Part shown: positions 9,328 through 51,559 of the stretch, piece by piece
Layout of the letters: each line of letters begins with the position of its first letter
How positions within the stretch are numbered: the first letter of the stretch is position 1
Assembly: GCF_025499465.1 (NCBI RefSeq)
Contig: NZ_JAIMCA010000007.1
Location: forward strand, 124,001 to 188,000
DNA length: 64,000 nucleotides
Direction of reading: 5' to 3'
DNA from: Allobosea sp. BH3
Lineage (GTDB): Bacteria; Pseudomonadota; Alphaproteobacteria; Rhizobiales; Beijerinckiaceae
The notes under the pieces: generated by a model
Seen by the model: the letters and a program-made list of their open reading frames with translations, nothing else
Database searches by the model: none
What the model was told of the DNA's origin: nothing
Translations under genes and position numbers: made by a program

Positions 9328-10191
9328 TCAGGCGGGAAGGGCGATCGGGCGCTGCGTCTGTGGATGCGCGAGGACGCTCATCTCGAGGCCGTAGATACGG
9401 GCAAGCTGCTGCGAGGTCATCACCTGATCCGGCGTTCCCCTGACGATCATCCTGCCCGAATGCAACGCGATGATCTCGTCGCAGAAGCGCGCGGCCATGT
9501 TGACGTCATGCAGCACGACGACGACGCCGAGCCCGCGTTCCGCCGAGAGCCGGTGCACCAGCGAGAGCACCTCGATCTGATGGGCTATGTCGAGGGCCGA
9601 GGTCGGCTCGTCGAGGAGCAGGCATTCGGCGTCCTGCGCGACCAGCATCGCGAGCCAGACGCGCTGGCGCTCGCCGCCGGAGAGGGTATCGACCAGCCGG
9701 TCGGCGAAGGGCTCGACATCGGTGAGCGCCATGGCTTCCGCGACCTTCTCGCGGTCCTTCGCCCCGAAGCGGCCCAGCGCGCCGTGCCAGGGATAGCGAC
9801 CGAGCGCGACCAGTTCCTTGACCAGCATGCCTGAGGAGGGCGGGGTCTGCTGCGGCAGATAGGCGACCTTGCGCGCGAAGGCGCGGCCGCTCCAGTCGTT
9901 CAGTGCCTTGCCCTCGAAGCGGATCGTGCCGCCCGAGGCGGGCTGCTGGCGGGCCATCAGCTTGAGCAGCGTCGACTTGCCGGAGCCATTATGGCCGATG
10001 AGACCGATCACGCGGCGTGCGGGCAGGGACAAGGAGAGGGGCGCGAGCAGATCGCGACCGGGCACGCTGAAGGAAGCGCCCTCCAGTTCGAAAAGATCGG
10101 CTTGGCCGGCCGCATCTGCCCGCGCCAGCGAAAGGGCTGGCGCCGCCAGCGGGCCATTTCCGGCCGGAAGTGCAGGGGCCGTGCTTTCCAT
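9328..10191 (-). CDS. fhuC: iron-siderophore ABC transporter ATP-binding protein (FhuC-like)
   Basis: A 287-residue ATPase of the FecCD-type uptake family. It has a roughly 30-residue N-terminal extension, Walker A GHNGSGKST, the FhuC/FepC-type segment KVAYLPQQTPPSSGMLVKEL and GRYPWHGALGRFG, signature LSGGERQRVWLAM, Walker B CLLLDEPTSALD and the H-loop VVVLHDVNMAARFCDE. It should energise the fused FhuB-like permease encoded 4.4 kb away on the other strand, since no other ATPase of this class is present. It shares a strand with the AraC regulator upstream and the exporter downstream. Confidence 0.92.
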   Translation of the reverse strand: MESTAPALPAGNGPLAAPALSLARADAAGQADLFELEGASFSVPGRDLLAPLSLSLPARRVIGLIGHNGSGKSTLLKLMARQQPASGGTIRFEGKALNDWSGRAFARKVAYLPQQTPPSSGMLVKELVALGRYPWHGALGRFGAKDREKVAEAMALTDVEPFADRLVDTLSGGERQRVWLAMLVAQDAECLLLDEPTSALDIAHQIEVLSLVHRLSAERGLGVVVVLHDVNMAARFCDEIIALHSGRMIVRGTPDQVMTSQQLARIYGLEMSVLAHPQTQRPIALPA

Positions 10192-13686: not shown

Positions 13687-14577
13687 ATGATCCCTACCAA
13701 GCCATCTCCCACACGACGCAGCGCGCTGGCGCTCTTGGCCGCAGCCGGCCTGCCGCTGCCTGCGCAGGCCGCAGGTCTGCGTATCGCGACCGTCGACTGG
13801 TCGGTGCTGGAAACCCTGCTCGCCCTCGATGCCCCGCCCGTCGCGGCGCCGGAGCTGCTGCAGTTCCGCGAGGTCGCGGTCGAGCCGGCGGTGCCCGCGA
13901 GCGTCACCGATCTCGGCCTGCGCGGCACGATCAATTTCGAACTGCTGCTCTTGTCGCGACCGGAGTTGATCTTCTCGTCGAGCTTCTATGTCGGCTCCGA
14001 GCCGCGGCTGCGACGGATCGCGCCGGTCGAGAGCTTTTCCGTTTATGCCGCCGGACGGCCGCCCTATGAGCCCGCGCTCGCCATGACCCGCGGCATCGGC
14101 GCGCGGCTCGGCATCGCCGCGCGGGCCGAGCGCTACATCGCCGAGACCGAGGCCGAGCTTGCCAGCCTGCGCGAGAAGCTGAAGCCCTATGCCTCGCGCC
14201 CGGTGATCCCGATTAATCTTGGCGACGCGCGGCACATGCGGGTCTTCGGAGGCGATAGCCTGTTCGGCGAGGTGCTGAAGCGGCTCGGCCTCGCCAATGC
14301 CTGGGTGGACCAGACGAGCTATTCCGCAATGGCGCCGATCGGCCTGGAAGCGCTCGCGCGCGTGCCGGACGCCTTCATCGCGTTGATCCCGCCCGTGCCG
14401 CCGGGAGCGATGGAAACGCTTGCGCGCAGCGCCTTCTGGAATGCGCTGCCCAATTTGCGCGAAGGCCGGCTGCTCCCGCTCGCCTCGATCAATCCCTATG
14501 GCGGGTTGCCGGCTGCACGGCGCTTTGCGCGGCTGCTGACCGAGGCCTTGCTCAAGGCGGGGTCCGCGCATGGCTGA
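13687..14577 (+). CDS. fhuD: iron-siderophore ABC transporter substrate-binding protein (FhuD-like)
   Basis: A 296-residue periplasmic binding protein of the helical-backbone class that carries siderophores to FhuB. A Tat-like signal (P-T-R-R-S-A-L-A-L-L-A-A-A-G-L-P ... A-Q-A) precedes the mature part beginning GLRIATVDWSVLETL. The central ELLLLSRPELIFSS and the late S-I-N-P-Y-G-G-L-P-A-A-R-R-F match FhuD. Its end overlaps the start of the permease gene by 8 bases (ATGGCTGA), so the two are translationally coupled. Confidence 0.92.
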   Translation: MIPTKPSPTRRSALALLAAAGLPLPAQAAGLRIATVDWSVLETLLALDAPPVAAPELLQFREVAVEPAVPASVTDLGLRGTINFELLLLSRPELIFSSSFYVGSEPRLRRIAPVESFSVYAAGRPPYEPALAMTRGIGARLGIAARAERYIAETEAELASLREKLKPYASRPVIPINLGDARHMRVFGGDSLFGEVLKRLGLANAWVDQTSYSAMAPIGLEALARVPDAFIALIPPVPPGAMETLARSAFWNALPNLREGRLLPLASINPYGGLPAARRFARLLTEALLKAGSAHG

Positions 14578-16567
14578 CGCCGCCCGGCCCGCGCGCCTGC
14601 GCCCCGCCGGCCATCCCGGCGCCTGGCTGCTGGCTGCGCTGATGGCGGCCGTTCTCCTCGCCGTCGTCATAGCGACGCGTCCGCCGCTGCCGGCTTCGCC
14701 CGCGCTCGCCCGGACGCTCGAAAGCATCCTGCTCTGGCAGAGCCTGATTCCGCGCGCCGTCACGGCGCTGATCTGCGGCGCTTCGCTGGGGTTGGCCGGC
14801 ATGCTGCTGCAGCGCGTGCTGCGCAACCCGATCGCCGATGCCTCGACGCTCGGCATCGCCTCCGGGGCCCAGCTCGCGCTGACCGTCGCGACGGCCTATG
14901 CGCCCGCGCTGATGGTGCTTTCCAGCGAGGGCGTCGCGCTCGTCGGCGGTGTCGCCGCCGTCGCGCTCGTCCTTGGGCTGAGCTGGCGGCGCGGGCTCGA
15001 CCCGATGACGGTTGTTCTTTCAGGCATGGTCGTTTCGCTGGTCGCGGCCGCCGCGAGCGCCGCCGTCATCCTCGCCAAGGGCGAATATGTGCTCTCGCTG
15101 TTCATCTGGGGCGCCGGCTCGCTCAACCAGCAGAGTTGGGATGCGGTTCTGGCGCTCGGCCCGCGCCTCGTGCTCGGCCTCGCCGCCGCGGCGCTGCTGC
15201 TGCGGCCGCTCGCGCTGCTCGGGCTCGACGAGGATGTGGCGCGGGGCCTGGGCCTCGCTTTGCATGCGACACGTTTCGCCGTTCTCGGCATCGCCGTCTG
15301 GCTGGCGGCGAGCGTCACGGCCGAGGTTGGCGTTATCGGCTTCGTCGGCCTTGCCGCACCGGCGCTGGCGCGCGAGCTCGGCGCGCGCACGCCGCGGCAG
15401 ATGCTGCTGGCCGCGCCGACGCTCGGCGCGCTGCTGCTCTCGATCACCGACAGTGCCGTGCAACTGCTCGGCTCCGGCTTCAATGATTTCGCGCCGACCG
15501 GCGCCGCGACCGCCCTGTTCGGCGGCCCCTTGCTGCTCTGGCTGATGCGGCGCGTTCCACCGGCTCTGCCGCCGCAGGCGAGCGACCCGGCCTTGCGCTC
15601 CGGCCGGACGCTGCGCTCGCTCCGCGCTCTCGGTCCAATCGCCGTGCTCATCGCCGCGCTTGCCGCGCTCGGACTGCTGCTCGGACGAGGGCCGGGGGGG
15701 TGGGAGCTTGCAACCGGCTCGCTCTTTTCGGAGCTGCTGCCTTTTCGCGGGCCGCGCCTCGTCGCCGCAGGGGCGGCCGGTGCGCTGCTGGGAGCCGCTG
15801 GCTGCCTGATGCAGCGGCTCACGGCCAATCCGCTCGCGGGGCCCGAGGTGCTGGGTGTCAGCGCCGGCGGCGGTGTCGGGCTACTGCTCGCGCTGACGCT
15901 CCTGCCGGCGGGCCCCTTCGCGATGCTGGGAGGCATCGCGGTCGGCTCGCTTTCCGTGCTCCTCGTCATGCTGCTCTTCGCCGCTCGTCCGGGCATCGGG
16001 CCGCAGCGGCTGCTGCTGGCCGGCATCGCCATGGGCGCACTCTGCATGGCGCTGGTTTCGACGGCACTCGCGCAGGGCGATTTGCGCGCCTACATGCTGC
16101 TGGTCTGGCTATCGGGATCGACCAACCGGGCCGGCGAGATCGAAGCCTGGACCGGCCTGATCGCCTGTGTCGTGTTGATCGCGCCCGTGCTGCTCGCGGT
16201 GCGCTGGCTCGACATGCTGCCGCTCGGAGAGGCGACGAGCCGCAGCCTCGGTCTGCCAGTCCAAGGCAGCCGCATCGGCCTTGCTGGCCTGGCCGCGTTG
16301 ATGACGGCGGTTGCATCGCTGCTCGTCGGGCCGCTGAGCCTGATCGGGCTGATCGCCCCGCATATGGCGCGGCTCGCGGGCTTCGCGCGCAGCCGCGACC
16401 AGCTGATCGCTTCCGTGCTGATCGGCTGCGGGGTGATGATCCTGGCGGACTGGCTCGCGCGTCTGGTCGCGTTTCCCTATCAGATGCCGGTCGGGCTGTT
16501 CGCCGCTCTGATCGGCGGACCTTATCTGATCTGGCTGCTCAACCGCGGGGGAAGCCGGCAGGGCTGA
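14570..16567 (+). CDS. fhuB: fused iron-siderophore ABC permease (FhuB-like)
   Basis: A 665-residue integral membrane protein made of two tandem FecCD permease domains, the arrangement of FhuB. Half one (about 15-330) has LAGMLLQRVLRNPIADASTL and V-G-F-V-G-L-A-A-P-A-L-A-R; half two (about 350-660) has AAGCLMQRLTANPLAGPEVL and LSLIGLIAPHMARLAGF. The G-L-x-x-P-H/A-x-A-R loops contact the ATPase. With both halves in one chain it needs only the FhuC-like ATPase, encoded at 9328-10191 on the other strand. It is convergent with the hydrolase gene downstream. Confidence 0.95.
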   Translation: MADAARPARLRPAGHPGAWLLAALMAAVLLAVVIATRPPLPASPALARTLESILLWQSLIPRAVTALICGASLGLAGMLLQRVLRNPIADASTLGIASGAQLALTVATAYAPALMVLSSEGVALVGGVAAVALVLGLSWRRGLDPMTVVLSGMVVSLVAAAASAAVILAKGEYVLSLFIWGAGSLNQQSWDAVLALGPRLVLGLAAAALLLRPLALLGLDEDVARGLGLALHATRFAVLGIAVWLAASVTAEVGVIGFVGLAAPALARELGARTPRQMLLAAPTLGALLLSITDSAVQLLGSGFNDFAPTGAATALFGGPLLLWLMRRVPPALPPQASDPALRSGRTLRSLRALGPIAVLIAALAALGLLLGRGPGGWELATGSLFSELLPFRGPRLVAAGAAGALLGAAGCLMQRLTANPLAGPEVLGVSAGGGVGLLLALTLLPAGPFAMLGGIAVGSLSVLLVMLLFAARPGIGPQRLLLAGIAMGALCMALVSTALAQGDLRAYMLLVWLSGSTNRAGEIEAWTGLIACVVLIAPVLLAVRWLDMLPLGEATSRSLGLPVQGSRIGLAGLAALMTAVASLLVGPLSLIGLIAPHMARLAGFARSRDQLIASVLIGCGVMILADWLARLVAFPYQMPVGLFAALIGGPYLIWLLNRGGSRQG

Positions 16568-17893: not shown

Positions 17894-18541
17894 CTAATCG
17901 TGGGGTGCGGCGATCACCACCAGCGCCTGCGCTTTCCGGCTGCCGATGCTGCGGACTTCGTGCTGGGAATCCGACGAGAAATAGAGGCAGTCGCCCTGGT
18001 TGAGCAGGATCTCCTCGCCGTTCATCCGGATGCCGATCTGGCCGCTGAGGACATAGAGCATCTCCTCGCCGGCATGGCTCGCCCGTGCCGCCGACTTGAA
18101 GGGCGGCTGCATGATGAAGGGCTCCATGATCTTGCCTGTCCGGCTAGCCGCGAGCGGCGAGAGCCAGAAGCCGCCATAGCCGGGCGAGGGCGGATCGTCC
18201 TGGTCATGGCGATAGAGCGAATATTGAGGCGCCGGGGCTGAATCGCGGTTGAAGAGCTGCGCGACGTTCAGCTCCAGCGCATCGGCAATGCGGACCAGCG
18301 CGGCGATGGAGGGAGTCTTCAAGCCGCGCTCGACGAGCGAAAGATAGCCGCGCGTCAATCCGCTGAGGGCAGCGAGTTTATCGAGCGTCAGCTCCCGGGC
18401 CTGGCGCGCCTCCTTGAGGTTCGCGCCGATCCGCTCGTCCTTGTAAACCGGCTTCACCGTCTGCCCCGTTTCTTGAGCCGCAATATATGCCTGCGCGCCC
18501 GGCTGCCCGCAACGGCGTCGATAGCGACTGTTGGTAAACAT
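17894..18541 (-). CDS. XRE-family regulator with C-terminal cupin sensor
   Basis: A regulator of up to 215 residues. A helix-turn-helix of the Cro/XRE type (about 38-92; LTLDKLAALSGLTRGYLSLV, then TPSIAALVRIADALEL) is joined to a cupin domain (about 130-205; H-A-G-E-E-M-L-Y-V-L-S-G then G-D-C-L-Y-F-S-S-D-S-Q-H). This layout belongs to the PuuR/SutR-like group of small-molecule repressors. The start is uncertain: the ATG at 18541 opens the frame, but a GTG at 18457 (VKPVYKDERIG) begins nearer the usual domain edge. It is divergent from the MFS gene, with a perfect operator-like palindrome between them. Confidence 0.88.
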   Translation of the reverse strand: MFTNSRYRRRCGQPGAQAYIAAQETGQTVKPVYKDERIGANLKEARQARELTLDKLAALSGLTRGYLSLVERGLKTPSIAALVRIADALELNVAQLFNRDSAPAPQYSLYRHDQDDPPSPGYGGFWLSPLAASRTGKIMEPFIMQPPFKSAARASHAGEEMLYVLSGQIGIRMNGEEILLNQGDCLYFSSDSQHEVRSIGSRKAQALVVIAAPHD

Positions 18542-18566: not shown

Positions 18567-18583
18567 TGACGAAAATTTCGTCA
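18567..18583. promoter_or_regulatory. perfect palindrome, candidate operator of the XRE-cupin regulator
   Basis: TGACGAAAATTTCGTCA is a perfect 8+1+8 dyad 26 bases upstream of the most upstream regulator start and about 190 bases upstream of the MFS start. A direct repeat GTAAACATT also occurs at 18534-18542 and 18679-18687. The dyad is the best operator candidate for autoregulation and for control of the divergent operon. Confidence 0.55.
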
Positions 18584-18771: not shown

Positions 18772-20088
18772 ATGAGCACAGCCGAAGGACTGTCGGTGCC
18801 CGGAGCCGTTTCCGAGCAGGCGAGGCAGATGCGGAAGATCGTGACGTCGAGCGTCGTGGGGACGGCGGTCGAATGGTACGACTTCCTGATTTACGGGACG
18901 GCGAGCGCGCTCGTCTTCAACAAGCTGTTTTTCCCGTCCGTCGATCCGGCGATCGGTACGATCGCGGCATTCGGCACCTATGCGATCGGCTTTCTGGCCC
19001 GGCCGCTGGGCGCGGCGATCTTCGGGCACTATGGCGACCGCCTCGGCCGCAAGGCGATGCTCTCGCTGACGATCATCATCATGGGTCTTGGCACCTTCCT
19101 CATCGGGTTGCTGCCGACCTATGAGCAGATCGGCGTCGCCGCGCCGATCCTGCTCGTCGCGTTGCGCTTTCTGCAGGGCATCGGGCTCGGCGGCGAATGG
19201 GGCGGGGCGGTGCTGATGGTGGTCGAGAACGCGCCGGCGAAAAAGCGCGGCCTGCTCGGCTCGATGGTGCAGATCGGCAATCCCATCGGCAACCTCGCGG
19301 CGATCGGCATGTTCGCGCTGCTGACCCAGCTGCCCGAGCCCGCCTTCCTGTCCTGGGGCTGGCGCATCCCGTTCCTGATCAGCATCCTCCTCGTCGCGGT
19401 CGGCCTGTTCATCCGCATGCAGCTGGACGAGACGCCGGCCTTCCGCCAGCTCGAGGCGCGCAAGGAGGTGGCGAAGCTGCCGCTGGTCGAGGTGCTGACG
19501 ACCTATCGCCGCCCATTCCTGACCGCGGTCGGCCTCAAGCTTTCCGAGATCGCCTATGCCAGCATCGGCGGCGTCTTCGTCATCGCTTACGTCACCGGTA
19601 CGCTCGGCCTGCCGCGCTCGCTGGTCCTGAACGCGATCTTCCTTTCGGCCGTGGTGGCGCTCGGGGCGATCCCGTTCTTCGGCTGGCTTTCCGACAAGGT
19701 CGGCCGCAAGCCGATGTTCTATGCGAGCTGCCTGTTCTCGATGGCCTTCGCCTATCCGATGTTCTGGCTGCTCGACACCAAGGACCCGACCATCATCACC
19801 TGGACGATCGTCGCGGCGATCACCTTCGGACAGATGGTCGGCTTCGGCATCGGCGCGCCCTGGTATTCGGAGCTGTTCTCGGCGCGGCTGCGCTACAGCG
19901 GTGCTTCGCTGGGCTTCCAGATCGGCGCGGCGCTGAGCGGCGGGCTCACGCCCTTCGCGGCGGCGAGTTTCATGGCCTGGTCGGGCGGCGCGACCTGGCC
20001 GATCTCGCTCTACCTGATCGCGCTCGCGCTGTTGACCTTCGTCGCCACGGTGCTGGCGCCAGAGACGGCCGGCAAGGAAATGAACTGA
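18772..20088 (+). CDS. MFS transporter, metabolite:H+ symporter family
   Basis: A 438-residue 12-helix permease of the MHS family (relatives carry shikimate, alpha-ketoglutarate, proline/betaine or citrate). Diagnostic segments: T-A-V-E-W-Y-D-F-L-I-Y-G near helix 1, G-H-Y-G-D-R-L-G-R-K-A between helices 2 and 3, L-Q-G-I-G-L-G-G-E-W-G-G-A in helix 4, and L-S-D-K-V-G-R-K-P in the second half. The start is the ATG at 18772, preceded by GGTGGAGG; an upstream in-frame start is less likely. It leads an operon with a MOSC protein and a ferredoxin reductase and is probably controlled by the divergent XRE-cupin protein. Confidence 0.92.
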   Translation: MSTAEGLSVPGAVSEQARQMRKIVTSSVVGTAVEWYDFLIYGTASALVFNKLFFPSVDPAIGTIAAFGTYAIGFLARPLGAAIFGHYGDRLGRKAMLSLTIIIMGLGTFLIGLLPTYEQIGVAAPILLVALRFLQGIGLGGEWGGAVLMVVENAPAKKRGLLGSMVQIGNPIGNLAAIGMFALLTQLPEPAFLSWGWRIPFLISILLVAVGLFIRMQLDETPAFRQLEARKEVAKLPLVEVLTTYRRPFLTAVGLKLSEIAYASIGGVFVIAYVTGTLGLPRSLVLNAIFLSAVVALGAIPFFGWLSDKVGRKPMFYASCLFSMAFAYPMFWLLDTKDPTIITWTIVAAITFGQMVGFGIGAPWYSELFSARLRYSGASLGFQIGAALSGGLTPFAAASFMAWSGGATWPISLYLIALALLTFVATVLAPETAGKEMN

Positions 20089-20105
20089 CGTAGGCTATCG
20101 AAAAT

Positions 20106-20135
20106 GCGATGGCCGGCATCGATGCCGGCCATCGC
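20106..20135. repeat. perfect 30-bp palindrome between MFS and MOSC genes
   Basis: GCGATGGCCGGCATC (20106-20120) is followed directly by its exact reverse complement (20121-20135), with no spacer. It fills most of the 64-base gap between two co-directional genes. In RNA it would fold to a long hairpin with no T-run after it, so a processing or partial-attenuation role is more likely than termination. Confidence 0.75.
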
Positions 20136-20152
20136 CTCGCGGAGAAAAAGAC

Positions 20153-20743
20153 ATGTCGACCCTCGACACGCAGACCCGGACGGCGGCTACGCCCGAACAT
20201 ATCGCGGCCTTCGACCATCCCGTAGGCAAGATCGCCCGCGAAACGCCCGGCGGTGCGCTCGGCTGGCGTGGGACGCTGCTGCACATCCACATCGCCCCGG
20301 CCGCCAGCTTCGAGATGGAGGAGCTCACCGAGGCGCAATGCGTCGCCGGGCGCGGCATCGTCGGAGACCGCTACTATGAAGGCACCGGCAGCTACTCGAA
20401 GCGCCCCGACGTGCGCGAGGTCACGCTGATCGAGCAGGAGGCGCTCGACGCGCTCGCCCGCAACGATCCGCCGCTGCAAGAGGGGCCGATCACGCTGCTG
20501 CCGGTCGACCATCGGCGCAACCTCACCGTGAAAGGCGTGCCGCTGAACCATCTCGTCGGCCGGCGCTTCCGGGTTGGGGAGGTCGTATTCCGGGGCGGGA
20601 GGCTGAACTTTCCCTGCAAGTATCTGGAGGAACTGCTCGGCCTGCCGGTCTTCCTGCCGCTCTACAACCGATCGGGCCTGAATGCCGGCATCGAGAGCGG
20701 CGGCGTGATCCGCCCGGGCGATACCATCGAGCTGCTGGACTGA
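20153..20743 (+). CDS. MOSC domain protein
   Basis: A 196-residue stand-alone MOSC-domain protein. The family (C-terminus of molybdenum cofactor sulfurase, YiiM, mARC) transfers sulfur or binds molybdenum cofactor. Seen: G-R-G-I-V-G-D-R-Y near 68, V-T-L-I-E-Q-E-A-L near 90, the family pattern R-R-N-L-T-V-K-G-V-x-L-N near 121, and the conserved Cys in F-P-C-K-Y (Cys155). GGAG precedes the ATG. It is followed six bases later by a flavin/[2Fe-2S] reductase; database proteins that fuse exactly these two modules suggest the pair forms one enzyme, perhaps a reductase of N-oxygenated compounds. Confidence 0.9.
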   Translation: MSTLDTQTRTAATPEHIAAFDHPVGKIARETPGGALGWRGTLLHIHIAPAASFEMEELTEAQCVAGRGIVGDRYYEGTGSYSKRPDVREVTLIEQEALDALARNDPPLQEGPITLLPVDHRRNLTVKGVPLNHLVGRRFRVGEVVFRGGRLNFPCKYLEELLGLPVFLPLYNRSGLNAGIESGGVIRPGDTIELLD

Positions 20744-20749
20744 CGGCGC

Positions 20750-21697
20750 ATGTCCGCGCGCCTCATCATGAAGCTGCGCGTCGCCGAGGCGCGTTTCATC
20801 ACCGACGACACACTGCTGCTGCGGCTCGTTCACCCGAGCCGGCCGCAACTGCCGGCCTGGACGGCCGGCGCCCATGTCGACCTGGTGCTGCCGGACGGCA
20901 AGGTCCGGCAATACTCGCTCTGCGGCGACCCTGCCGAGCGCGGCAGCTACACGATCGCGGTCAAGCGCGAGGAGGCGGGGCGCGGCGGGTCGGCCTGGAT
21001 TCAGGAGAGCCTTGTCGAAGGGGCGCTCGCGCATGTTTCGGCGCCCCGCAACAATTTCGCGCTCGCGGAGACAGCCTCGCACCACCTGCTCGTCGCAGGC
21101 GGGATCGGCGTGACCCCCATCCTCGCCATGGCGCGCTCGCTCGCGGCGGCGGGCGCCTCGTTCCGTGTCCACTACTGTGCCCGGAGTGCTCCAACCGCTC
21201 CGCTGCTTGAAGAACTGCGCGACATCTGCGGTGAGCGCCTGAGCTGCTGGTTCTCGGAGGATGGCCGGCGCTTCACGGCCGCTGCGATCGAGGCTCCGCG
21301 TGACGAGGAGCATCTCTATGCCTGCGGGCCGCTCGGCCTGATCGACGATCTCACGGCGCATGCGCTCAGCCTTGGCTGGTCGCCCGAGCAGATCCACGCC
21401 GAGAAGTTCCAGGCGCTGCGGGATGAGGATTTCATTCCCGAGGATTTCGAGGTCGAGCTGTCCTCGACCGGGCAGCGGCTGCATGTGCCGGCCTCGTCGA
21501 CGCTGCTTGCGGTGCTACAGGCCCATGGCGTGCCGATGCGGACCTCCTGCGAGACTGGCATCTGCGGTTCCTGCATCTGCGACTATTCGGCCGGCGACGT
21601 CATCCACCGCGATGCCGTGCTCCAGCTCGCGGAGCGTTCGCACCGGGTCGTGCCTTGCGTCTCGAGGGCGAGAGGGACGCTGACGCTCGCGCTCTGA
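20750..21697 (+). CDS. PDR/VanB-type ferredoxin oxidoreductase (FMN, NAD, plant-type [2Fe-2S])
   Basis: A 315-residue phthalate-dioxygenase-reductase-like protein. The flavin domain has R-Q-Y-S-L near 53, the NAD domain has G-G-I-G-V-T-P-I near 119, and the C-terminal plant-type ferredoxin has C-E-T-G-I-C-G-S-C with Cys267, 272 and 275 plus Cys303. It passes electrons from NAD(P)H to a partner enzyme. No Rieske oxygenase is nearby, so the likely acceptor is the MOSC protein encoded just upstream. Confidence 0.92.
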   Translation: MSARLIMKLRVAEARFITDDTLLLRLVHPSRPQLPAWTAGAHVDLVLPDGKVRQYSLCGDPAERGSYTIAVKREEAGRGGSAWIQESLVEGALAHVSAPRNNFALAETASHHLLVAGGIGVTPILAMARSLAAAGASFRVHYCARSAPTAPLLEELRDICGERLSCWFSEDGRRFTAAAIEAPRDEEHLYACGPLGLIDDLTAHALSLGWSPEQIHAEKFQALRDEDFIPEDFEVELSSTGQRLHVPASSTLLAVLQAHGVPMRTSCETGICGSCICDYSAGDVIHRDAVLQLAERSHRVVPCVSRARGTLTLAL

Positions 21698-22052
21698 CGA
21701 TCCCGCCGGAATGACGATGGCCTCGGTCGTCGGCGCGACATCGACACGCTACACAATGCGGGCGGTTGCGGACTGCTGGATTACGCGTTCGCTGCTCGGC
21801 GGGGCAGGGGCGTCGTCTTGACTTGCCATTCCAATAATGGAATTCCTATTCCAACAAGGTGGCTGAATAAAAAAAATATGCCACGGTTCAGGGGAGGTCG
21901 TCGCGCTGCCGGAAGCCGGTTCCTTAGCCAACGATTCGCAGCCGCGCCGGCCAGCACGATCCGTGCTATCCCGTAGCCAAGACGGAGCACCGCGTCAGCG
22001 GAAGCCCGCTTCGTGCCAGAACATAAAAAACGGAAATATCAGGGAGGTTCAG
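21698..22052 (+). promoter_or_regulatory. 355-base regulatory gap with three alternating ATTCCA half-sites
   Basis: No gene is visible here. The notable element is ATTCCA (21828-21833), a 4-base spacer, TGGAAT (21838-21843), another 4-base spacer, then ATTCCA again (21848-21853). A TTGACT hexamer at 21818-21823 lies just upstream, so a regulator bound here could cover a promoter. A+T-rich DNA follows, and a strong ribosome-binding site AGGGAGG at 22041-22047 serves the binding-protein gene. The regulator is not identifiable; an IclR-type protein is one possibility. Confidence 0.45.
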
Positions 22053-23090
22053 ATGCATTCGAAATCCTGGCTCCGGGCGGGGCTGTTTGCAGCGGTCGCT
22101 ACTGCTGCCTTTGCTGCCGCGCCGGCCCGCGCGCAGGGCTCGCTCGTGATGTATTGCGGCGTGCAGGAGGAATGGTGCCGCGCCATGTCGACGGCCTTCG
22201 AGAAGGAGACCGGGATCAAGGTCGCGATGACCCGCAAATCGGCGGGCGAGATCTATGCCCAGCTCAAGGCTGAATCCTCGAATCCGCGCGGTGACATCTG
22301 GTGGGGCGGCACCGGCGACCCTCATCTGCAGGCGGCGGAAGAAGGCCTGACGCAGGAATATGAATCGCCGAAGAATGCCGAGCTGCATCCCTGGGCACTG
22401 GACCAGTGGAAGGCGGCCAAGCAGCGCTCCATCGGCATCTATGCGGGCGCGCTGGGCTTCGGCTTCAACACCGAGCAGATCAAGGCGAAGGGCATCCCCG
22501 AGCCGAAATGCTGGGCGGACCTGCTGAATGCAAAGCTGAAGGACGACGTGCAGGTCGCCGATCCCAACTCGTCTGGCACCGCCTACAACCTGCTGGCCAC
22601 CGTCATCCAGCTGATGGGAGAGGAGAAGGGCTTCGACTATCTGAAGCAGCTCCACAAGAACGTCAGCCAGTATACGAAGTCGGGCGCCGCGCCAGCCAAG
22701 GCAGCGAGCCTCGGCGAGACCGCCGTCGGCATCGTCTTCATCCATGATGCGGTGGTGTTCGCCGTGCAGGGCGACCCGATCAAGCCGGTCGCGCCCTGCG
22801 AGGGCACGGGCTACGAGATCGGCTCGATGTCGATCGTCAAGGGCGCGCGCAATCTCGACAACGCGAAGAAGTTCTACGACTGGGCCCTGACCCCGGCCGC
22901 CCAGGCGCTCGCCGCGCCGGCCAAGTCCTATCAGGTTCCGTCGAACAAGGCCTCGCCGGTGCCGGCGCAGTCTCCGAAGATGGATCAGATGAAGCTGATC
23001 AACTACGACTTCGTGAAATACGGCTCCTCGGCCGAGCGTACCCGCCTGCTCGCCAAGTGGGACAAGGAGGTCAAGGCGCTGCCGAAGTAA
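22053..23090 (+). CDS. ABC transporter substrate-binding protein, ferric-iron/AfuA type
   Basis: A 345-residue periplasmic binding protein. A signal peptide (M-H-S-K-S-W-L-R-A-G-L-F ... A-R-A-Q) precedes a mature domain of the Fbp/AfuA class (VMYCGVQEEWCRAMS, D-I-W-W-G-G-T-G-D-P-H near 86, G-I-Y-A-G-A-L-G-F-G-F-N near 131). Two cysteines at the mature N-terminus are unusual. I do not see the clear Tyr-Tyr ligand pair of true FbpA ferric-iron proteins, so the ligand may be a phosphorylated or carboxylated metabolite, as shown for AfuA. It leads an operon with a two-domain permease and an ATPase. Confidence 0.9.
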   Translation: MHSKSWLRAGLFAAVATAAFAAAPARAQGSLVMYCGVQEEWCRAMSTAFEKETGIKVAMTRKSAGEIYAQLKAESSNPRGDIWWGGTGDPHLQAAEEGLTQEYESPKNAELHPWALDQWKAAKQRSIGIYAGALGFGFNTEQIKAKGIPEPKCWADLLNAKLKDDVQVADPNSSGTAYNLLATVIQLMGEEKGFDYLKQLHKNVSQYTKSGAAPAKAASLGETAVGIVFIHDAVVFAVQGDPIKPVAPCEGTGYEIGSMSIVKGARNLDNAKKFYDWALTPAAQALAAPAKSYQVPSNKASPVPAQSPKMDQMKLINYDFVKYGSSAERTRLLAKWDKEVKALPK

Positions 23091-51214: not shown

Positions 51215-51559
51215 ATGACCATCAAGCGCAGCATCAAGACGCCGATCCAGAACCGCATCGTCGAAACCGGCAACCTCGTCTTCGTCGGCGGCTGCATCGC
51301 GGACGACACCAGCAAGACCATGGGCCCGCAGACCGAGAACATCCTCGGCAAGATCGAGGGCTATCTCCGCGAGGTCGGGCTCGACCGCAAGGCGATCGTC
51401 GCCGCGCAGATCTTCGTGACCGACCTGTCGCAGAAGAAGGAGATGGACGCCGCCTGGACCGGCTTCTTCGGCGATGAATTGCCGACGCGCGCCACGGTCG
51501 GCGTCGCCGATCTCGGCGGCGGCGCGATGATCGAGGTGGTCGTCACCGCCGCGAGGTAG
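51215..51559 (+). CDS. RidA family enamine/imine deaminase
   Basis: A 114-residue RidA (YjgF/UK114) protein. The sequence holds T-G-N-L-V-F-V-G-G-C-I-A-D near 19, E-N-I-L-G-K-I-E-G-Y-L-R-E-V-G near 43, and P-T-R-A-T-V-G-V-A-D-L near 92, where Arg is the conserved substrate-binding residue. RidA hydrolyses the reactive 2-aminoacrylate-type or cyclic imines produced by amine oxidases, so it fits as the last gene of this oxidative operon. AAGGAG precedes the ATG. Confidence 0.92.
   Translation: MTIKRSIKTPIQNRIVETGNLVFVGGCIADDTSKTMGPQTENILGKIEGYLREVGLDRKAIVAAQIFVTDLSQKKEMDAAWTGFFGDELPTRATVGVADLGGGAMIEVVVTAAR

Follow-up and report, generated by a model that had tools for sequence, protein, structure and literature searches.

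The 64,000-nucleotide stretch of the Allobosea sp. BH3 genome analyzed here (contig NZ_JAIMCA010000007.1, positions 124,001 to 188,000; hereafter the window) carries a four-gene cassette built around a small MOSC-domain protein. On the forward strand, a major facilitator superfamily (MFS) permease of the MHS family (18772–20088) is followed by the MOSC gene (20153–20743, 196 residues) and, after a gap of 6 bases, by a 315-residue reductase of the phthalate dioxygenase reductase (PDR)/VanB type (20750–21697). A regulator with an XRE-type helix-turn-helix and a cupin domain (17894–18541, reverse strand, start codon uncertain; Pfam HTH_3 43.0 bits, Cupin_2 48.9 bits) is divergent from the transporter gene. 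The permease resembles TIGR00883 (416.1 bits, just under the cut-off of 443) and the shikimate-transporter model (391.8 bits, under its cut-off), and its predicted substrate is a carboxylate or zwitterion taken up by proton coupling. A preliminary description of this DNA had placed a MOSC protein and a ferredoxin-type reductase in adjacent genes six bases apart, accompanied by an MFS permease and a cupin regulator, and the open reading frames (ORFs), the gap and the Pfam domains bear this out. Its suggestion of a small inducible reductase system with its own transporter is, as a prediction, well supported by gene context and homology, namely by the reductase, transporter and regulator genes. 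We propose, with a probability of roughly 0.65, that the locus is a small inducible import-and-reduce cassette in which the MOSC protein and the PDR would act together as an N–O reductase.

The MOSC domain (PF03473, 31.5 bits against a cut-off of 22.7, with the match reaching residue 193 of 196) is the sole Pfam match of the protein at E ≤ 0.001. At this threshold no NCBIfam model was matched, and Pfam detected neither YiiM_3-alpha (PF03475), the mark of the YiiM subfamily, nor MOSC_N, the mark of the YcbX/mARC subfamily, nor the ferredoxin domain of YcbX. Searches of the PDB by sequence returned no MOSC chain, either for the single window protein or for a profile, which gave three chance-level matches. 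An AlphaFold2 model built from 37 sequences (pLDDT 80.6, pTM 0.76) yielded 13 Foldseek matches at E ≤ 0.001, all of them YuaD, YiiM, mARC1 or 1o65/1o67 entries, the last titled hypothetical protein; MOSC structures were thus reached by the fold search alone. The model aligned with YuaD at Z 15.7 (root-mean-square deviation (rmsd) 2.9, 155 aligned), with human mARC1 at Z 15.3 (rmsd 2.8, 146 aligned) and with YiiM at Z 14.8 (rmsd 2.3, 134 aligned), pyruvate kinases reaching only Z of about 8. Alignment of the window protein with 38 relatives (50–82% identity) revealed that C155 (codon 20615–20617) and an HRRN motif are invariant in all 39 sequences. C155 shares its alignment column with the cysteine of two YiiM-type fused proteins described below; the genome's other MOSC protein, which carries MOSC_N (34.9 bits, cut-off 25), did not align at this column. 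PMC5818509 describes the MOSC cysteine as absolutely conserved in the family and near molybdenum in the authors' model. Because of the fold, the conserved cysteine and the presence of moaA in the genome, the window protein is likely a molybdenum cofactor (Moco) enzyme, and MOSC proteins studied in vitro to date show N-reductive activity, according to PMC10637980.

The reductase contains Fer2 (39.0 bits), FAD_binding_6 (24.3 bits) and NAD_binding_1 (23.4 bits), each over its cut-off. Its closest known type is phthalate dioxygenase reductase (2pia, E 1.7e-54), with P450 entries containing such a reductase part matching at E 9e-62 and 6e-57, and its domain order and motifs are like those of PDR and VanB. 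Motifs were counted in the 91 paired reductases that span over 270 aligned residues: all of them contain RxYS and the cysteines of a plant-type ferredoxin (CxxxxCxxC...C), 90 contain GGIG[VI]TP (GGVG allowed) and 85 contain Y/V-x-CGP. Reductases of the PDR/VanB type classically serve Rieske oxygenases; those of the window type are instead paired with MOSC. A Rieske profile derived from four proteins encoded on three plasmids matched all three control loci and none of the 105 source loci, and the seven ORFs in the loci that matched a loose Rieske regular expression were not backed by the profile. On this search of the 105 sources, the idea of a Rieske oxygenase encoded near the pair was set aside. 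The reductase phylogeny was inferred with IQ-TREE from 100 rows and midpoint-rooted, with long branches flagged; from an alignment of 103 rows, L019, L051, L137 and L113 were removed because of their shortness (loci are numbered with the prefix L), L110 and L114 were replaced, and three fused reductases were entered as domain cuts. In this tree, the reductases paired with window-type MOSC proteins and those of a second, gamma-lyase-type group of loci form one clade of 87 rows with support 98/98. Outside it fall all six other PDR-type reductases sampled (L115, L141–L145, among them three next to genes for Rieske-type dioxygenases and one P450 fusion) and likewise four divergent MOSC partners (L109, L133–L135).

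The pairing of the two genes is a conserved feature. A first scan found 93 relatives, of which the best 80 were kept, and plasmid and genome loci enlarged the collection to 105, window included. A reductase lay directly downstream of MOSC on the same strand in 81 of the 89 loci with enough flank in the first set and in 94 of the 105 in the enlarged one, the two being separated by −4 to 37 nt (median 3; 6 in the window). The pairing is not due to chance, and the two genes are a conserved unit that recurs in many bacteria of soil and plants, many of the loci being closely related to one another. The surrounding cassette is conserved as well: among the 79 PDR-bearing loci with enough flank, a figure that includes the window, a transporter gene of the MHS/MFS or TRAP kind lies within 6 kb in 69 (some TRAP matches being only about 30% alike) and an XRE regulator in 71. 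The subfamily occurs sporadically: it turned up in 5 of the 61 relatives that were searched, in 4 of the genus's 37 genomes and in 11 of a phylum sample of 398, each count including the window's own genome.

Several loci extend the range of contexts and hosts. Another common component of the cassette is a DJ-1/PfpI-family gene, found in 34 of the 101 loci searched (e.g., L031:4596-5258). In two Acetobacteraceae loci (L056, L061), MOSC stands beside coenzyme A (CoA)-transferase genes without a PDR, and a Bradyrhizobium plasmid (L148) combines MOSC and PDR with CoA-transferase, thiamine pyrophosphate enzyme and tricarboxylate transporter genes. On the megaplasmid of Ruegeria pomeroyi DSS-3 (L146:7001-8413), the pair adjoins genes for a heme protein and a redoxin. 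A haloarchaeal plasmid (L147:5989-6480) encodes a MOSC relative of 46% identity with no annotated reductase within 6 kb, the annotation being incomplete; several further haloarchaeal plasmids also match the MOSC protein, as does a 46% identical product annotated as a hypothetical protein in an E. coli plasmid record (CP099135.1, 59220-59696).

The preliminary description took the two genes for the split halves of a known fusion. Fused MOSC/FAD-oxidoreductase proteins do exist, and three were examined, but they belong to other MOSC subfamilies. Those of a genome of the same order (L110) and of a Neorhizobium plasmid (L114) consist of MOSC, YiiM_3-alpha, FAD_binding_6, NAD_binding_1 and Fer2; both match the model for 6-hydroxyaminopurine reductase, with scores of 104 and 117 bits that stay under the cut-off of 294. 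The third (L113) has MOSC, FAD_binding_6, NAD_binding_1 and Fer2, with MOSC_N at 23.5 bits, just below the cut-off of 25, and is YcbX-like by these domain matches. For the reductase half of all three, flavohaemoprotein is the best NCBIfam model, at 224, 251 and 104 bits and thus under its cut-off of 432, and in the midpoint-rooted tree, on long branches, they branch apart from the 97 PDR-type rows with support 100/98. The window reductase and the Neorhizobium fused reductase share 27.9% identity. In none of the 94 pairs, window included, does the MOSC frame run into the reductase, so the search recovered no fused homologue of the window's own MOSC subfamily, and the 11 matches in 398 Pseudomonadota genomes contain no open frame longer than 323 residues. 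Fusion ancestry was therefore rejected on the three proteins examined; the fusion is still useful as an analogy.

The most frequent additional neighbor belongs to the Rid family. Of the 93 PDR-bearing loci (window not counted), 65 have a Rid-family ORF at a distance of no more than 6 kb, often directly before the MOSC gene, and in 53 of those 65 its center is 300–700 nt from the MOSC center. Given the density of 11 Rid-family genes in the 5.25 Mb genome, chance would account for such proximity in only a few per cent of loci. Three cassette Rid proteins were scanned, and all exceed the TIGR00004 cut-off of 106 (161, 144 and 137 bits). One aligns with 1qu9 (YjgF) through PARS...EIEAIA, with a single three-residue gap before EIEAIA; the arginine of its PARS motif is that of the imine deaminases. 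A different arrangement was found on two Rhizobium plasmids, in which an amino-acid ABC transporter, MOSC, PDR and an ornithine cyclodeaminase (OCD)-family protein follow in that order. The OCD-family protein scores best with the model for pyrroline-2-carboxylate reductase, an imine reductase; models for the ornithine cyclodeaminase family and alanine dehydrogenase come next, further ones extend to iminosuccinate reductase, and none of them reaches its cut-off. That two unrelated imine-handling families adjoin the same reductase pair suggests that the product of the pair is an imine, and in the Rid-bearing relatives the usual product is probably an imine or enamine, judging from these neighbors. 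Pyruvic oxime features in studies of heterotrophic nitrification (PMC5216522, PMC11160463). In the open-licence literature we found no paper joining the MOSC domain with RidA or with ornithine cyclodeaminase; likewise, among the matches listed there, no title or abstract opening concerned a MOSC–PDR cassette, which is not proof of novelty. The link to Rid and imines, and the view of MOSC–PDR as a portable module, are what is new here.

Nine loci (L086, L087, L106–L108, L137–L140) represent the second type, in which the pair is accompanied by a Cys/Met-metabolism pyridoxal phosphate (PLP) enzyme. They come from rhizobia and, in three cases, from the window's genus, with MOSC identities to the window of 58–68%. 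Two of the PLP enzymes were scanned by Pfam, and one by NCBIfam, where the closest model was methionine gamma-lyase (470 bits, cut-off 666). None of the nine has a Rid gene within 6 kb, as against 65 of the 84 other PDR-bearing loci. The cluster of Mesorhizobium AR10 from an Astragalus nodule (L139:5298-17357) comprises two PLP gamma-lyase-family enzymes, a MocR-type regulator, MOSC, PDR, a transketolase, a B3_4 protein and FMN-binding regulators. None of the other loci searched has this B3_4 protein, and a similar tenth cluster (L150) shows none. In Mesorhizobium huakuii, homoserine dehydrogenase and aspartate ammonia-lyase genes are nearby. PMC10018355 reports that the B3/4 protein CtdA edits canavanyl-tRNA and adjoins canavanine degradation genes in R. 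leguminosarum, where cleavage of canavanine yields homoserine and the N-hydroxy compound hydroxyguanidine. By analogy, the gamma-lyase-type pair may reduce hydroxyguanidine. The likeness to rhizobial canavanine degradation loci is limited to rhizobial and some same-genus relatives and does not extend to the window, and the lyases are candidate counterparts of canavanine-gamma-lyase. Both types are present in a single genome of the genus (L105 and L106), so the window type and the gamma-lyase type likely differ in function. No guanidine riboswitch was found near L086, L087, L106–L108 or L139, the sole Rfam match over threshold being a tRNA. As a separate observation, the L150 cluster of Mesorhizobium amorphae from a Robinia nodule has genes for a SidA/IucD/PvdA-family N-hydroxylating monooxygenase and a class I tRNA ligase-like protein (L150:1279-4631), about 5–9 kb from the MOSC–PDR pair.

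Further features surround the cassette in the window. Between regulator and transporter, a weak inverted repeat of 8+1+8 bases (18567–18583) might serve as an operator; it is absent from the corresponding region of L105 and of seven other loci examined, and the idea of a conserved operator was dropped. Between transporter and MOSC gene lies a perfect 30-base palindrome (20106–20135), which would form an RNA hairpin. Folded as RNA, positions 20080–20155 give a z of −4.35, none of 200 shuffles being equally stable, and the palindrome's 26-base core is single-copy in the genome even when three mismatches are allowed. In a survey of 56 intercistronic gaps (25–260 nt only, 60 shuffles each), z was −2 or lower after 20 of the 44 MFS-type transporters and after none of the 12 TRAP-type ones; with 20 of 56 gaps in all, a general conserved hairpin after the transporter was rejected, and the palindrome is possibly an mRNA segmentation hairpin. 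An Rfam scan of the window placed three tRNAs over threshold. Downstream of the reductase, a solute-binding protein (21963–23090), which most resembles those that bind 2-aminoethylphosphonate (TIGR03261, 220 bits, under the cut-off of 393), and a following permease-like ORF look like a separate ABC-transporter unit. Upstream, 14570–16567 encodes a permease of the FhuB type for ferric hydroxamate (NF007866 at 689 bits, above its cut-off), for which no link to N–O chemistry is implied.

Taken as a system, the cassette would work as follows. Under the control of the XRE-cupin protein, the MHS permease would import a small carboxylate- or zwitterion-like compound with an N–O bond. Electrons would pass from NADH through the flavin and the [2Fe-2S] cluster of the PDR to molybdenum in the separate MOSC protein, which would remove the oxygen in a two-electron N–O reduction. 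The cofactors, this electron flow and the role of each part in Allobosea sp. BH3 are predictions from homology; that the pair carries out an N–O reaction of some kind seems to us quite likely. In the relatives, an oximino acid, for example, could be reduced to an imino acid, which RidA would hydrolyze to a keto acid and ammonia. For the window copy, one of the genome's 11 Rid-family proteins or spontaneous hydrolysis might serve instead, or the substrate might need no such step. We regard the imine/oxime step as possible rather than probable for the family, and less so for the window's copy.

Several known systems resemble this scheme in part. The fused MOSC/FAD-binding oxidoreductases (e.g., L114, or Q89NR8, named in PMC10637980) likewise join MOSC with flavin, NAD and [2Fe-2S] domains, but in one chain, with a MOSC part that is YiiM-type with 3-alpha in two of those scanned and YcbX-like in one, and with a flavohaemoprotein-like reductase half. 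Mammalian mARC with cytochrome b5 and b5 reductase is similar in its separate molybdenum protein of MOSC fold and its NADH-fed donor chain; it differs in that cytochrome b5 and b5 reductase take the place of the single flavin–[2Fe-2S] protein predicted here. RidA (YjgF) imine deaminases have their counterparts in the RidA-type genes of many sister cassettes, not in the window's own. With E. coli YcbX (plus CysJ) and YiiM, the window protein has the MOSC fold and the cysteine in common, and the activity known from the literature there is N-hydroxylamine reduction. To our knowledge, neither is found in such a cassette. YcbX differs in having MOSC_N and a fused ferredoxin domain, and YiiM in its 3-alpha domain and in having had no electron donor assigned to it (PMC5818509, PMC10637980).

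A number of observations weigh against the proposed reading. In 11 of the 105 loci, MOSC occurs without a PDR reductase (L054, L056, L057, L061, L063, L064, L070 and L078 from Acetobacteraceae/Rhodospirillales metagenome-assembled genomes, and L131, L132 and L136), and most counted loci come from related alphaproteobacteria, so the counts are not independent. The Rid protein lacks the GPY motif in 7 of 12 TRAP-trio cassettes and in L008, L009 and L011 (three further rows without it, L024, L032 and L036, are cut-short sequences), and the association with an imine reductase rests on two similar plasmids. The window itself has no Rid gene between positions 10001 and 32000. Its nearest one (51215–51559) is 30 kb from the cassette, is of a different type and follows an FAD-dependent oxidoreductase-like ORF; with a best match of about 30% identity or less to the cassette Rids, it was rejected as the cassette's own. 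No orthologue of the cassette RidA is among the 11 Rid-family proteins of the genome, whose best identities are about 41% to cassette-type Rids and 50% to the divergent Rid of L011. The sister locus L105 has the same gene order (identities: MHS 87%, XRE-cupin 83%, MOSC 78%, PDR 63%), and its Rid, about 4.3 kb off, is divergent and falls short of the RidA cut-off with 59.5 bits. Among the six cassettes with the most window-like transporter (71–76% identity in L130 and L133–L135), Rid is present within 6 kb in L105, L133 and L081 and absent in L130, L134 and L135; the near relatives L006, L007 and L013 also have none. With no Rid gene near the window's cassette, the oxime/imine reading rests on the relatives and not on the window.

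This absence also fits the alternative that stands closest, in which the same N–O reductase pair releases an amine, amidine or guanidine from an N-hydroxyguanidine, hydroxamate, N-oxide or amidoxime, and the Rid genes of the relatives serve another step, such as the clean-up of damage products. We give it a real chance, though one short of even odds. The rhizobial and same-genus relatives that pair MOSC–PDR with a Cys/Met-metabolism PLP enzyme speak for it, and so does the B3_4 protein adjoining the Mesorhizobium AR10 cluster, of the family of the canavanyl-tRNA editor CtdA (PMC10018355). Yet the B3_4 protein is present in 1 searched locus only, Rid often directly precedes MOSC, and the split in Rid occurrence (0 of 9 gamma-lyase-type loci, 65 of 84 others) suggests different substrates for the two types. 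An N–O bond in a ring, as in an isoxazolone, is another conceivable target: by chemical inference, reductive opening would also yield an enamine, aminoacrylate, for RidA to hydrolyze, and this would suit a carboxylate importer. We know of no MOSC protein that performs such a ring opening and consider the idea very unlikely.

The preliminary description had the system act on N-hydroxylated or related compounds, with N-hydroxylated bases and amidoximes as its proposed test substrates. On such a reading, the pair would serve to detoxify these compounds in general, in the manner of YiiM and YcbX in E. coli, and MOSC proteins studied in vitro do reduce N-oxygenated compounds (PMC10637980). The transporter and regulator genes near most pairs (69 and 71 of 79) and the sporadic occurrence of the subfamily fit an acquired catabolic trait better than a housekeeping function, and the genome's other MOSC protein, with its MOSC_N domain, could do that job; we hold detoxification to be improbable. 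Least likely of all appears a PDR serving an oxygenase encoded elsewhere, with MOSC as a Moco carrier or an unrelated neighbor. The classical role of PDR/VanB reductases and the 11 of 105 loci with MOSC and no PDR agree with it, but the direct adjacency in 94 of 105 loci across differing gene contexts, the lack of a nearby Rieske gene in all 105 and the shared clade of window- and gamma-lyase-type reductases (87 rows, 98/98) argue for a partnership of the two proteins.

Returning to the import-and-reduce cassette, its broadest version would make MOSC–PDR a portable module inserted into varied catabolic cassettes. The commonest of these would turn imported oximes, or other N–O compounds, into imines for a dedicated RidA to hydrolyze to keto acid and ammonia, and others would plug in imine reduction by an OCD-family enzyme, hydroxyguanidine from canavanine, or a CoA-transferase route; as a whole, we put this forward as a tentative and rather doubtful generalization. 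Should it hold, it would provide a route of oxime assimilation and a physiological substrate class for MOSC enzymes. Because the recurrent cassette brings along a candidate donor, an importer and a regulator, and in relatives also a partner that processes imines, it opens direct and inexpensive tests of the purpose of the enzyme, and it offers a reason for the company that Rid genes keep with some redox enzymes.

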